The notes below the pieces were generated by a model that was not told the origin of the DNA, made no database searches, and was given only the letters and a program-made list of their open reading frames with translations. A program made the translations under genes and the position numbers. A DNA stretch of 46,976 nt from Vicinamibacteria bacterium. GTDB lineage: Bacteria; Acidobacteriota; Vicinamibacteria; Fen-336. Position 1 is the stretch's first letter; every line of letters begins with the position of its first letter. Shown in pieces: positions 7,374 through 35,528 of the stretch. The stretch lies in the NCBI GenBank assembly GCA_035570235.1, contig DATMML010000037.1, forward strand, positions 1 through 46,976, read 5' to 3'.

Positions 7374-10300
7374 ATGGAGCGTCGGACTTTCCTCAAAGCC
7401 ACGACCGTTGGGGGCGCCGTCGCCATAGGCTTCGATGTCTCGACCGCCCGGGCGGAGATGCGCGAGCTCAAGATCTCGCGCACCACCGAGACCCGGAGCA
7501 CCTGCCCCTACTGCGCGGTCTCGTGCGGTGTGATCATCCACACTCTGGGCGATAAGGCCAAGAACGTCACTCCCGCCGTGGTGCATGTGGAGGGGGACCC
7601 CGACCACCCGATCAGCCGCGGGACCCTCTGCCCCAAGGGAGCGACCCTCAAGGACGACATCACCCACAAGAACCGGATACTGGCGCCCAAGGTGCGCCGC
7701 CCGGGCTCGGAGCGCTGGGAGGATATATCGTGGGACGAGGCGATCTCCAAGATCGCCCGCCACGTCAAGGACACCCGGGACCGGTGCTTCGTGGCAAAGA
7801 ACGCTAAGGGACAGGTGGTGAACCGCAACCCCGGACTGGCCATGATCGGGGGGTGCACGGACACCAACGAGTTCAACCTCCTCCAGTGGAAAGCGGTGAC
7901 GGCTTGGGGAGTCGCGTACCGCGACACCCAGGCCCGTGTTTGACACGGCCCCACGGTGGCCAGTTTGGCCGCCACCTTCGGCCGGGGCGCAATGACCAAT
8001 GGCTGGGTCGACATCAAGAACGCCGACGTCATCCTGGCCATGGGGGGCAACGCCGCCGAGAACCACCCCGTCGGCTTCAAGTGGTTCATCGAGGCCAAGA
8101 TCACGCGCGGCGCCAAGCTCGTCGTGGTCGACCCCCGCTTTACGCGTACGGCGGCGGTAGCCGACTTCTATTCCCCCATCCGGGTCGGCACGGACATCGC
8201 TTACCTCTACGGGATCATCCGCTACGCCCTCGAGAACAAGCGCTACCACGAGGACTACGTCAAGCTCCACACCAACGCCGCCCTGCTCATCAACGAGAAG
8301 TTCGCGTTCAACGACGGGGTCTTCTCCGGCTTTGACGAGAGCAAAGGGGACTACGCGAAGGACTCTTGGGCCTACCAGCTCGACGCCAAGGGCTTCGCCA
8401 AGTCCGATCCCACCCTAGAGAGCCCGAACTGCGTCTTCCAGCTCCTGAAGAAGCATGTGGACCGCTACACCCCGGAGATGGTGGAGCGGATCTGCGGCGT
8501 TCCCAAGGACACCTTCCTGAAAGTCGCGGAGATCGTGACCTCGACCGGTAACGCGGAGCGGGTCGGCACCATCACCTACGCCCTGGGCTGGACCCAGCAC
8601 TCCACCGGCGTGCAGATCATCCGGGCGGGCGCGATCCTCCAGTTGCTCCTCGGCAACATCGGCCGTCCGGGGGGCGGCATGAACGCCTTCCGCGGCCACT
8701 CCAACATTCAGGGCGCCACCGACACCGCAGGCACGTTCGAGATCCTGCCCGGCTACCTGAAGACGCCCGCCGGGCCCTGGCAGACCCTGAAGGAGTACCT
8801 CGACGTCAACACCCCCAAGCCGCTCGAGTCGGCTTCCATGAACTACTGGCAGAACTACCCCAAGTTCATGGTGTCGCTGCTGAAAACGGCCTACGGCAAG
8901 GCCGCCACCAAGGAGAACGACTTCGGCTATGCCTGGCTCCCCAAGGTCGACGGGAACTACTCCTGGATGTACATCTTCGACGACATGTATCGCGGCAACT
9001 CCACGCGAGCGGGGGGCAAGGAACCGGGGCCCGAGGGCTTCATCACCTTCGGCATGAACCCGGTGGGGCTGGGCCCGAACTCCAAGAAGATGGTGGCCGC
9101 GCTGTCCAAGCTCAAGTGGATGGTCGTGGTCGAGAATGCGGAGACGGAGACGGCCGGTTTTTGGAAGGCCCCCAAGGAGTACGACGGTCCGGAGCCGGCC
9201 AAGATCCAGACCGAGGTCTTCCTCCTCCCCGCCGCCACTTTCGCGGAGAAGGACGGCACCTTCACCAACTCCGCCCGCTGGCTCCAGTGGAAGTGGAAGG
9301 CCCTGGATCCCCCCGGCCAGGCCAAGGCCGACCAGGAGATTCTGGCCCGGTTGGTCCTGGCCGTGCGCGACCTCTACAAGAAGGAGGGCGGCGCCCTACC
9401 GGAGCAGGTCCTGAACCTGAGTTGGGGCTACTCCAATCCCGTGAACCCCGACCTCGGCGAGGTCCTGAAGGAGATGAACGGCAAGGCCCTGGCCGACCTC
9501 CACGATCCCAAGGACAAGACCAAGGTCATCAAGACCGCCGGCCAGCAGATTGACGGCTTCGGCCAGCTCATGGACGACGGCACCACCATGTGCGGGAACT
9601 GGCTGCACTCCGGCGTCTACACGGAGGGCGGAAACAACGCCCAGCGTCGCAACAACTCCGACCCCACCGGCCTCGGCATGTACCACAACTGGGCGTTCGC
9701 CTGGCCGGCCAACCGCCGCATCATGTACAACCGGGCCTCGGCCGACGCTGAGGGCAAGCCCTGGGATCCGAAGCGCGCGGGCATCTCCTGGAACGGCGAG
9801 AAATGGGTGGGCGACGTCCCGGACATGAAGCCCGACGCCCCGCCCGGCACCTACGGGGCCTTCATCATGAACCAGGAGGGAGTGGCGCGTCTGTTCGCTT
9901 CCAGCCTCAGCGACGGGCCCCTGCCCGAGCACTACGAGCCGGTGGAGGCGGCGCTGGACAATCCCCTCCACCCCAAGGTGACCTCGAACCCCTGCTTCAA
10001 GAGGTTCTCCTCCGACAAGGACGTGTACGGCAAGAGGGAGGACTTCCCCATCATCTGCACCACCTACCGCCTCACGGAGCACTTCCATTACTGGACCCAG
10101 CACCAGCACCAGGGGCATCTGAACGAGCTCCAGCCGGGATTCTTCGTGGAGATTCCGGAGGCGCTGGCCCGCGAGAAGGGGATCGCCAACGGCTCCCAGG
10201 TGAAGGTCATTTCCGCGCGCGGCCAGATCCAGGGCCTGGCCATGGTGACCAAGCGCCTCCGAACCATGACCGTCGACGGGAAGCAGATGTGGCAGATCGG

Positions 10301-32096: not shown

Positions 32097-33068
32097 TTGG
32101 CTGGAGTCTCCCCCACGGGCCCGCTCGCCTTCCTCCTCCACCACCCCCTGGCCGTGCTCTCGGCGGCGGTGTTGGCGGACCAGCTCGGCCTGCCCCTCCC
32201 CACGGGGCCGCTCCTCCTTGCCGCAGGGGCGCTCGCGGGGCAGGGCCGACTGGACATCGCTTCCGCGCTGAGCGTCTGCGTCGTCGCCTCCGTGCTCGGC
32301 GAGCTCGCTTGGTACGAGGCAGGGCGCCGCCGGGGGAGCTCGATTCTCAGCCTGCTCTGCCGCATCTCCTTGGAGCCCGACTCTTGCGTGCGCCGGACGG
32401 AGGATGTTTTCATCCGCCACGGCGCGCGCACCCTGCTCGTGGCCAAGTTCGTTCCCGGCCTCGCCACCGTGGCCCCGCCCCTCGCCGGCGTCATCGGCAT
32501 GCGCCTTTCCCGATTCGTCCCCTGGGCGGGGGCGGGAGCCCTGATCTGGGCCGCGACCTACTTCTTCCTCGGCTTCATCTTCAGCGACCAGCTGGAGGAT
32601 GTGGCTCGGCACGCGGCCACCCTGGGCGCCTTCTTCGTCGCCGCTTTCGTCGCGTGGCTGGCCTGGAAGTACGCCCAGCGGCAGCGCTTCCTCCGCGACC
32701 TGCGGATGGCCCGCATCAGCCCCCAGGATCTCCACCTCAAGCTGGGTGCGGGGGAGGAGATCGTGGTCGTGGACCTGCGGGGCGCCCTCGACTTCGCGGC
32801 CGACCCGAGTGTGATCCCGGGGGCGCTGCGGGTGTCCGCGGAGGAGCTCGCGGAGCGGCACGACTTGATCCCCCGCGACCGGGAGATCGTCCTCTACTGC
32901 ACGTGACCGAACGAGGCCACGAGTGCCCGGGTGGCACTGCTCTTGAGGGCGCGCGGGATCACGAGGGTGCGACCCCTGGCCGGTGGGTTGAGCGCCTGGC
33001 GAGGCCTCGGGCTGCCCGTGGAGACGCGCGAGAACCCGGGGGAGTCCTCAGAACCTCCCCTGCGTTGA
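32097..33068 (+). CDS. DedA-family membrane protein fused to rhodanese domain, probable selenoprotein (UGA at codon 270)
   Basis: This 323-residue fusion has a DedA/SNARE-associated membrane domain in residues 1-195 ('VLADQLGLPLPTGPLLL', 'VAKFVPGLATVAPPLAG') and a cytoplasmic rhodanese domain after about 205. The frame meets TGA at 32904-32906 in 'IVLYCT-U-PNEATSARVA' and then continues in the same frame with the rest of a rhodanese fold ('RVRPLAGGLSAWRGLGLPVE') to TGA 33066. Relatives, as I remember them, have Cys at the UGA position (YCxCPNEAT). A hairpin fitting the bacterial SECIS rule follows. Reading UGA as selenocysteine gives a C268-x-U270 pair. A nonsense mutation of TGC, or a sequencing error, is the alternative. 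The start is uncertain: TTG 32097 or ATG 32046, which has GGAG 5 nt upstream. Confidence 0.75.
32904..32942 (+). promoter_or_regulatory. Candidate selenocysteine UGA and SECIS hairpin in the DedA-rhodanese gene
   Basis: After UGA (32904-32906) comes a 15-nt spacer, then AGTGCC (32922-32927) pairs perfectly with GGCACT (32933-32938) around the loop CGGGT. The first loop G (32929) is the second loop base and lies 23 nt after the UGA. GAG (32913-32915) and CTC (32940-32942) can form a lower helix. The geometry is close to that of the fdnG element. Confidence 0.6.
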
Positions 33069-33102: not shown

Positions 33103-34443
33103 ATGAACTTCCCGGTCTGGGATCTGCCTCTGCTGGGGGGCGGCGTTCTCATCGGTTTGATCGCCATCCTCCACGTCTTCGTCTCCCATTTCGCGGTGGG
33201 GGGGGGACTGTTCCTTGTCCTGACCGAGGCCCGGGCCTACCGCCGAAACGATCCCGCCCTCCTGGCCTACCTGAAGCGGCACTCTCTCTTCTTCGTGCTG
33301 GTGGTGCTCGTCTTCGGGGCCGTGAGCGGGGCCGGCATCTGGTGGACCATCGGTCTCGTCCACCCCACCGCCACCTCTACCCTGATCCACGTCTTTGTTT
33401 GGGCCTGGGCCATCGAGTGGGTCTTCTTCTTCGTGGAGATCGCGGCGGCTTTCGTCTACTACTACGGCTGGGAGCGGCTGGACCGGCAGACCCACCTCAC
33501 CGTGGGGTGGATCTACTTTGGGGCGGCCTGGCTCAGCCTGGCCGCGATCAACGGGATCCTGACCTTCATGCTCACCCCGGGGGAATGGCTGAGCAGCCAC
33601 CGCTTCGTGGACGCCTACTTCAACCCCACCATGCTTCCCTCGCTGCTCATCCGCACCGCGGTGGCGGTGGCCCTGGCCGGCCTCTACGCGCTGCTCACCG
33701 CCTCCACCATCGAGGACCATCACCTCCGCCAAGGGGTCACCCGTGAGGCGGCGGGCTGGGTGCTCGCGGGCTGCCTGCCCATCCCCCTCCTGGGTCTGTG
33801 GTACATCGGCCAGATCCCGCCCCTGGCCCGCGAGATCTCCATGGGCGGCGCTCCCGCGGTGGCGATCTTCGCCGCCCTCTCCGTGGCCCTCTCCGTTGGC
33901 GTGGTACTTCTCACGTTTTTTGGCCCCTTCCGCCGACCGGAGGAGACGGGGGTGGTGCTGGTGGCAGTGATCGCCTTCCTGGGTCTGGCCGTGACGGGGG
34001 TGACGGAGTGGGTGCGGGAGGCGGTGCGCAAGCCCTACATCATCTACGGCTACATGTACTCCAATGCGGTGCGGGTCGGGGAGGAGGGGCGTTTGGGGCA
34101 GCGGGGAGTGCTCGCCACCGCCAAATGGGTCTCTTCCCACGACGTGAACGACCCCGATTGGCGCCGGACCGGCTACGAGATCTTCCGTGTGGAGTGCCGG
34201 AGCTGCCACACCATCGAGGGCTACAACGGGATCCGCATCATGGTGAAGGGCTGGCGGGAGGACTTCATCGAATACCAGCTCCGCCACCTCAACGAACTCA
34301 AGGGCTTCATGCCGCCCTTCACGGGGACGGACGAGGAGCGGCATTTGCTCGCCCGTTGGCTGGCCGGGCTCACCGGTGAGAAGCCGTTAGGCCCCCCCTT
34401 TCTCAAGGCCGCGGCTCCCCGAGGGGAAGAGACCCGCCCTTGA
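33103..34443 (+). CDS. Cytochrome bd-like oxidase subunit with C-terminal cytochrome c domain
   Basis: This 446-residue membrane protein has about nine helices that match the CydA family ('ILHVFVSHFAVGGGLFLVL', 'GIWWTIGLVHP', 'WAWAIEWVFFFVEIAAAFVY'), then a C-terminal c-type heme domain with CRSCH (C365, C368, H369) and a likely Met ligand in 'KGFMPPFTG'. The heme-ligand His near the N-terminus (in VSHFAVGGG) is conserved with CydA, but the long GRQPW quinol loop is absent. This fits the cytochrome-c-containing branch of the bd superfamily (OR-C type, from memory), whose electron donor and activity are poorly known. It overlaps its partner by 4 bp. Confidence 0.82.
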   Translation: MNFPVWDLPLLGGGVLIGLIAILHVFVSHFAVGGGLFLVLTEARAYRRNDPALLAYLKRHSLFFVLVVLVFGAVSGAGIWWTIGLVHPTATSTLIHVFVWAWAIEWVFFFVEIAAAFVYYYGWERLDRQTHLTVGWIYFGAAWLSLAAINGILTFMLTPGEWLSSHRFVDAYFNPTMLPSLLIRTAVAVALAGLYALLTASTIEDHHLRQGVTREAAGWVLAGCLPIPLLGLWYIGQIPPLAREISMGGAPAVAIFAALSVALSVGVVLLTFFGPFRRPEETGVVLVAVIAFLGLAVTGVTEWVREAVRKPYIIYGYMYSNAVRVGEEGRLGQRGVLATAKWVSSHDVNDPDWRRTGYEIFRVECRSCHTIEGYNGIRIMVKGWREDFIEYQLRHLNELKGFMPPFTGTDEERHLLARWLAGLTGEKPLGPPFLKAAAPRGEETRP

Positions 34444-35528
34444 GCCCAATCCTGCCCGACCCCGACCCCCTCGGCCTCCCCGCCCCCGCCTGGGTCCTCA
34501 AGACCCTGCTCGTCGCGACGTTCGCGCTCCACCTCCTGCCCATGAACCTGATCGTGGGCGGCGCCTTCGTGGCCGCCTGGGCGGCCTTCAAGGGCCGGGC
34601 CGGCGGAGCGGGGGCCCTCCCCTGGCGGTTGCTCACGGGAGATCTGGCTCGGCTCCTCCCCCCCGCCACCGCCTTCACGATCACCACCGGCATCGCGCCC
34701 CTGCTCTTCCTCCAGGTTCTCTACGGCCAGCTCTTCTTCACCTCCTCGGTGCTCATGGCCTGGAGCTGGCTGGCCGTGATCGGCCTCCTCCTCGTCGGCT
34801 ACTACAGCACCTACGGCTTCTCCCTCGGCCGAGGGTCGGGCCCGAGCCCCGGGCTCGCCCTCTTGAGCGCGGGCGCATTCTCCGTGATCGCCCTGATCTT
34901 CACCAACAACATGACCTTGATGCTGAGGCCCGAGATCTGGGCGGCGCTCTACGCGGGGGACGAGCGGGGCCTGCACCTCAATCTGGCCGACCCCGTCCTC
35001 TGGCCCCGCTTCCTCCATTTCTGGATTGCATCCTTCGCCCTGACCGGCCTGGCGGTGGCCCTTCTCGGACGCGGGCGCGAGAAGCGCGACCCGGAAACCG
35101 GGGGCTGGATGAAGCGGTTCGGCCTCCGCCTCTTCTCCCTGGCCACGCTCGTCCAACTCGCTTCCGGCCTCTGGCTCCTGCTCTCCCTGCCCGGGCCCGT
35201 CCGCACCCTCTTCCTGGGGGGCGACCCCGCCGACGCCGCCCTCCTCTGGGGGTCGGTTGCGCTGGCCCTCCTGTCCCTGGCCGTGGTTGGCCGTCACCTG
35301 CTCGCGGGCATGGGCCTGGTGGGGGCGGCCCTGACGGGGATGGCGATCGTCCGGCATCGCGTGCGCGAGGCTTCGCTGGCCCCTCATTTTTCGGCGGGGA
35401 GGCTGCGGGTCGAAGCCCAGACGGCCCCCTTTGTCCTCTTCCTGGTCCTGTTCCTGGCCGGGATCGCGGTGGTGGCGTGGATGGTGGGACGGCTGGCGCG
35501 GGCGGCGGGGCCAAAAGGCGCCGGCTGA
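34440..35528 (+). CDS. Second membrane subunit of the bd-like oxidase
   Basis: This 362-residue protein has about nine membrane helices. Its N-terminal helix ('TFALHLLPMNLIVGGAFVAA') resembles the matching helix of the previous gene, so the two look like distant paralogues forming a heterodimer, as in CydA-CydA'-like pairs. No CydB-like protein or heme c motif is present. TTG 34440 overlaps the previous stop (TTGA), with a purine-rich GAGGGGAAGA upstream. Translation coupling to its partner is likely. The family call rests on this pairing more than on motifs. Confidence 0.7.
   Translation: MSPILPDPDPLGLPAPAWVLKTLLVATFALHLLPMNLIVGGAFVAAWAAFKGRAGGAGALPWRLLTGDLARLLPPATAFTITTGIAPLLFLQVLYGQLFFTSSVLMAWSWLAVIGLLLVGYYSTYGFSLGRGSGPSPGLALLSAGAFSVIALIFTNNMTLMLRPEIWAALYAGDERGLHLNLADPVLWPRFLHFWIASFALTGLAVALLGRGREKRDPETGGWMKRFGLRLFSLATLVQLASGLWLLLSLPGPVRTLFLGGDPADAALLWGSVALALLSLAVVGRHLLAGMGLVGAALTGMAIVRHRVREASLAPHFSAGRLRVEAQTAPFVLFLVLFLAGIAVVAWMVGRLARAAGPKGAG

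Follow-up and report, generated by a model that had tools for sequence, protein, structure and literature searches.

Fusions of a DedA membrane domain with a rhodanese are known in their cysteine form, for instance PA1209 of Pseudomonas aeruginosa (PMC12893004), and combinations of COG0586 with PF00581 have been described (PMC10127716). The DedA proteins of COG0586 are flippases of undecaprenyl phosphate (UndP), rhodanese fusions occur among them, and the link between DedA and the fused rhodanese was called unclear (PMC10127716). Selenocysteine-containing rhodaneses are on record, too: a 2026 review lists a rhodanese-like form 3 with a CxU motif (PMC13188914), which corresponds to the type of NF041203. 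The locus described here lies in a contig of a Vicinamibacteria bacterium, of which a stretch of 46,976 nucleotides (the window) was analyzed. Taken together, our data are very probably best explained by a real selenoprotein that joins a DedA domain to a CxU rhodanese and has a predicted role in sulfur/thiol redox chemistry.

The gene occupies positions 32097 to 33068 of the forward strand, including its stop codon TGA 33066-33068. A single TGA at 32904-32906 interrupts the frame before this stop. An earlier sequence-only reading had proposed that coding continues across it up to TGA 33066, and this was borne out, with the Pfam match of the rhodanese spanning the codon. A DedA/VTT domain (VTT_dom, PF09335; 32196-32573, residues 34-159, 49.5 bits) precedes the rhodanese (PF00581; 32721-33002, residues 209-302, 43 bits) within one protein. 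The fold predicted with 34 relatives in the alignment had a mean pLDDT of 87.9, and its rhodanese part matched 3tp9 with a Z of 17.4, so that both Pfam and structural comparison assign it to the rhodanese fold. The start codon is uncertain. TTG 32097 agrees with the N-termini of relatives; the alternative ATG 32046 has a GGAG upstream and would add 17 residues that have no counterpart in relatives and for which the confidence of the model was low.

Standard annotation would end the gene at 32906. Read in this way, the UGA would genuinely terminate translation or stem from a sequencing error or nonsense mutation, and the rhodanese half would be truncated or decaying. The 53 open codons that follow do not contradict this by themselves: base composition would leave such a stretch open with a probability of about 0.35, and its openness alone therefore proves nothing. 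The evidential weight comes from comparison, since the downstream half was kept in all homologues, the column in question holding either TGA or a codon for Cys.

This comparison drew on a first survey of 149 related genomes, which yielded a few fusions, four of them in addition to that of the window with an in-frame TGA, and on a second one, a profile search of the GTDB species genomes, which gave 565 relatives, 80 of which were kept. Together with the fusion loci of the first survey, and after removal of duplicates, they formed a set of 84 genes. A contig search with a single-protein query had returned no matches; an alignment query succeeded. The aligned codon was TGA in 65 genes and TGC or TGT in 19, whereas TAA, TAG or a sense codon for another amino acid did not occur in any of the 84. 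All fusion genes thus carry Cys or Sec where the sequence-only reading had suggested to look for it. These proportions are subject to two opposite biases: pattern 1 of the profile search required Cys to be encoded at the Sec site and favored Cys, and the ranking by likeness to the Sec query favored Sec. A less biased survey drew 396 genomes evenly from the phylum; 70 of them carried the fusion, and 29 of these 70 had the in-frame TGA. All 17 new readable TGA loci from this draw, some of which may belong to genomes already counted, had their TGA at the CxU site. Named contigs with the fusion belonged to Acidobacteriota, Methylomirabilota, Rokubacteria, Nitrospirota and Deltaproteobacteria/Myxococcota; the Sec fusion is common in Acidobacteriota and present in several further phyla. 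In one Cys copy (L009, G008:C8), the DedA and rhodanese halves lie in different frames near position 2229, owing to a frameshift, a sequencing error or a split gene.

Among the Sec genes, differences over codons +11 to +33 amounted to 0.295, 0.219 and 0.613 for the three codon positions and rose to about 0.74 at all positions beyond the true stop, a pattern indicating that the half downstream of the UGA is under purifying selection. A base error is untenable because 65 genes share the TGA. That these genes come from several phyla and have it at one column, followed by constrained sequence and a SECIS hairpin, makes a stop or an error at this codon very improbable; judged from the sequences, conservation already refutes it.

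The hairpin lies just 3' of the UGA, at 32922-32938 (AGTGCC-CGGGT-GGCACT), and has a 6-bp stem and a 5-nt loop. It had been pointed out before as a candidate SECIS element, a role that is now backed by synonymous freezing and compensation. Codons +6 to +10 of the Sec genes read AGC (63) or AGT (2), GCC (65), CGT (41) or CGG (23), GTG (57 of 57 Val codons) and GCG (63) or GCA (2). Measured against the codon usage of the genes themselves, positions +6, +7, +9 and +10 were frozen with z values of 10.5-15.7, versus a largest z of 4.6 for the same codons in the 19 Cys genes. The resulting consensus is AGYGCC-loop-GGCRCT, with stem pairing of 98.9% in Sec genes vs 85.1% in Cys genes. Only the window gene and L057 deviated from AGC...GCG, and in both of them the two sides of the stem were altered together, from C-G to U-A. 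This double change concerned one stem pair in two sequences; strict synonymous freezing limits covariation, so that few compensations arise. A covariance model, a check called for by the sequence-only reading, gave one match in the whole genome, namely the hairpin at UGA 32904 (61.4 bits). Folded alone, a 48-nt segment did not exceed its shuffled versions in stability (z 0.39). One clade at a greater distance (L145, L152, L155, L156) had a different lower stem but retained the apical GCC-loop-GGC.

Standalone rhodaneses with an in-frame TGA were observed across the class (L021, L030, G003:C17:14728-15060, G013:C2:42120-42425 and others). Since L021 and L030 share the identical hairpin at identical codons with the fusion, Sec in fused and standalone selenorhodaneses probably has a common origin.

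The genome encodes the machinery required to read this signal, as the sequence-only reading had expected: selA (524 bits), selB (342), selD (353) and tRNA-Sec (71 bits) were all found. Its SelD gene (L128, G000:C103:141313-142233) itself has an in-frame TGA and probably encodes a selenoprotein. Within the window, fdnG has a Sec codon (RVUHGPTVASLA) and, at 7938-7996, a match to Rfam SECIS_3 of 68.1 bits. Decoding of the UGA as Cys or Trp, whether through suppression or through a deviant genetic code, would be in line with the aligned Cys of the remaining homologues, but TGA terminates these genes, that of the window included, and a complete Sec machinery is present together with a SECIS-like hairpin. 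This possibility is even less credible than a true stop. Insertion of Sec at UGA 32904 is, on these comparative grounds, almost certain.

Of the 37 Sec genomes, 33 contained SelB, vs 6 of the 20 Cys genomes. With tRNA-Sec counted as well, SelB or tRNA-Sec was present in 36 of 37 vs 7 of 20, a comparison whose Fisher values ignore relatedness. The one Sec genome where neither was found (G185) is a MAG of 2.0 Mb, and its incompleteness is probably the reason. The tree requires at least seven changes between Sec and Cys, all seven forced by well-supported branches. L111 (6467), a Cys gene with TGT and the sister of the Sec gene L070 (6793), retained the hairpin sequence in a genome with tRNA-Sec; it probably represents a recent replacement of Sec by Cys with a fossil SECIS.

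The presence of Sec in the active site might suggest that the special task of the protein is the handling of selenium, for example delivery of selenide to SelD or reduction of selenite at the membrane. Rhodaneses can indeed carry selenium. Resistance to selenite has, in addition, been connected with a DedA protein (Ledgham 2005, as cited in PMC10127716). Against this, Cys forms persist in 13 of 20 genomes where both SelB and tRNA-Sec went undetected, which argues that the task needs no Sec metabolism, and no sel genes were recognized among the conserved neighbors of the fusion loci. We therefore consider selenium handling quite unlikely. Among the roles that the sequence-only reading had offered, this one is disfavored; the most likely role is one in sulfur/thiol redox chemistry at the membrane.

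The putative active site, Cys268-Thr-Sec270 (32898-32906), reads YCTU, a CxU motif placed after a beta-strand. Both the pair and the YCxCPNEAT loop, which had been expected from relatives, proved correct. In ATG numbering, C105, C114, C285 and C/U287 were invariant in 34 of 34 aligned proteins. Judged by the predicted strand and by alignment to 3tp9, it is the first Cys of CxU that takes the catalytic position, and Sec follows two residues on; the loop that starts at this Cys departs from the six-residue active loop, the alignment with 3tp9 needing two extra residues. Most likely these features belong to a sulfur/thiol redox enzyme that is anchored in the membrane and works through a Cys-x-Sec pair. 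With the hairpin at 32922-32938 directing SelB, UGA 32904 would be decoded as Sec, giving a protein with its DedA-fold domain N-terminal in the membrane and its rhodanese C-terminal, probably on the cytosolic side. Cys268 would take up a sulfane sulfur to form a persulfide, which would then be attacked by the selenolate of Sec270. Reduced sulfur would be released or passed on while a selenenylsulfide forms between Cys and Sec. This bond would then be reduced by a thiol donor, for which a thioredoxin and the C-x8-C pair in the DedA domain are candidates. Deduced from the motif, persulfide formation on Cys268 and its resolution by Sec270 are proposed tentatively, with a little less than even confidence.

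The surroundings of the gene varied. A nitroreductase gene was found nearby in up to 27 loci, mostly of Acidobacteriota and usually directly upstream, with a YceI gene before it in 25 loci; MarR-like and SDR genes, both named by eye, were also close. In Terriglobia the order SDR, MarR-like, YceI, nitroreductase, DedA-rhodanese was repeated (L044 3254-5965 and similar loci), and in several Methylomirabilota and Nitrospirota a pirin gene was nearby. In many Terriglobia the fusion gene thus appears to share an operon with those for YceI, a nitroreductase and a MarR-like protein, which suggests a setting of oxidant or electrophile stress. None of the YceI, nitroreductase, MarR-like, SDR or pirin genes was seen around the window gene, which is flanked by a divergent gene for a PALP enzyme and by one for a cytochrome bd subunit I-like protein (33103-34443) with a C-terminal cytochrome c (CBB3-type) domain. 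The latter is followed by a membrane protein gene devoid of Pfam matches (34440-35528). The placement before an oxidase, to which the sequence-only reading had attached meaning, did not hold up: the oxidase clusters with no other fusion locus and was rejected as functional partner.

For the DedA part, a role as an undecaprenyl-phosphate flippase has to be considered, with the attached selenorhodanese governing its activity through its own redox or persulfide state. The frequent neighbor YceI belongs to a polyisoprenoid-binding family, and weak matches to UptA models were obtained; moreover, the COG0586 flippases include rhodanese fusions (PMC10127716). However, the residues do not fit. At the first re-entrant tip, the position of the second acidic residue (Asp51 of YghB; window position 54 in ATG numbering) is hydrophobic or Gly in 34 of 34 fusions. 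At the second one (Arg130 and Arg136 of YghB), Lys134 is kept and position 140 is Ser, Gly, Asn or Ala in all 34, whereas plain DedA paralogues retain both the second acidic and the second basic flippase residue. Because the fusion lacks the second acid and the second Arg, both of which are required in flippases, flipping of undecaprenyl phosphate by it appears unlikely, and so does a flippase under redox control.

Instead, the DedA part has an invariant C-x8-C pair at 32358-32387 (Cys88 and Cys97 counted from TTG 32097; 34 of 34 in the alignment), which was not present in the plain DedA paralogues compared. By analogy with DsbD and CcdA, this pair might exchange electrons or sulfane sulfur with C-x-Sec, the whole acting as a membrane redox device. 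We regard this as improbable; if true, a DedA scaffold lacking two flippase residues would serve in a role like that of DsbD or CcdA. More generally, the loss of flippase residues together with the invariance of four Cys/Sec positions suggests, from sequence comparison, that some DedA domains do not move undecaprenyl phosphate, and our findings bear on the reason for the fusion of DedA to rhodanese (PMC10127716). The gene, with the same TGA and signal, is carried by dozens of uncultured bacteria from soil and groundwater, and annotation that takes the UGA as a stop yields a truncated DedA entry. As Sec and Cys forms occur naturally side by side among close relatives, the advantage of Sec can be put to the test.

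How, then, does the fusion compare with known systems? With the single-domain rhodaneses GlpE and PspE it shares the fold (Z 14.4 to GlpE 1gmx) and the position of the catalytic Cys after a strand, which Cys268 likewise occupies; in the fusion the loop is extended by about two residues and contains a second Cys/Sec. Close to it in the active site is NF041203 (rhodanese_LYCAU, 'rhodanese-related (seleno)protein'), the named family of CxU selenorhodaneses; the sequence-only reading had itself noted that Sec-containing rhodaneses are reported from metagenomic surveys. NF041203 shares the rhodanese domain and the YCxU motif with Cys variants, but its model covers 126 positions and has no membrane domain, whereas the fusion has DedA. 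The window protein scored 79.2 bits, below the cut-off of 115, as did the standalone L021 and L030 with scores under this cut-off; it reached no cut-off in NCBIfam, where we found no model of the Sec fusion. TsoB (NF045694), a rhodanese/DsbD fusion-like selenoprotein, also combines a selenorhodanese with a redox-type partner, but carries two Sec in a UxxxxU motif (PMC13188914), its partner being DsbD-like and not DedA; its model matched weakly in 16 of 34 fusion members. PA1209-type and COG0586-PF00581 fusions have the same DedA-then-rhodanese order, PA1209 being compared by description only, and unlike the window fusion are not described as selenoproteins. In a non-exhaustive search of the selenoprotein and DedA literature we found no description of a Sec-type DedA-rhodanese, and DedA is not mentioned in deep-Sep (PMC12013277) or in the selenoproteome reviews of 2022 and 2026. 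The CxU selenorhodanese and the Cys fusion are thus each known already; the novelty is the DedA-fused Sec form, which adds a membrane-anchored member to the selenorhodaneses.
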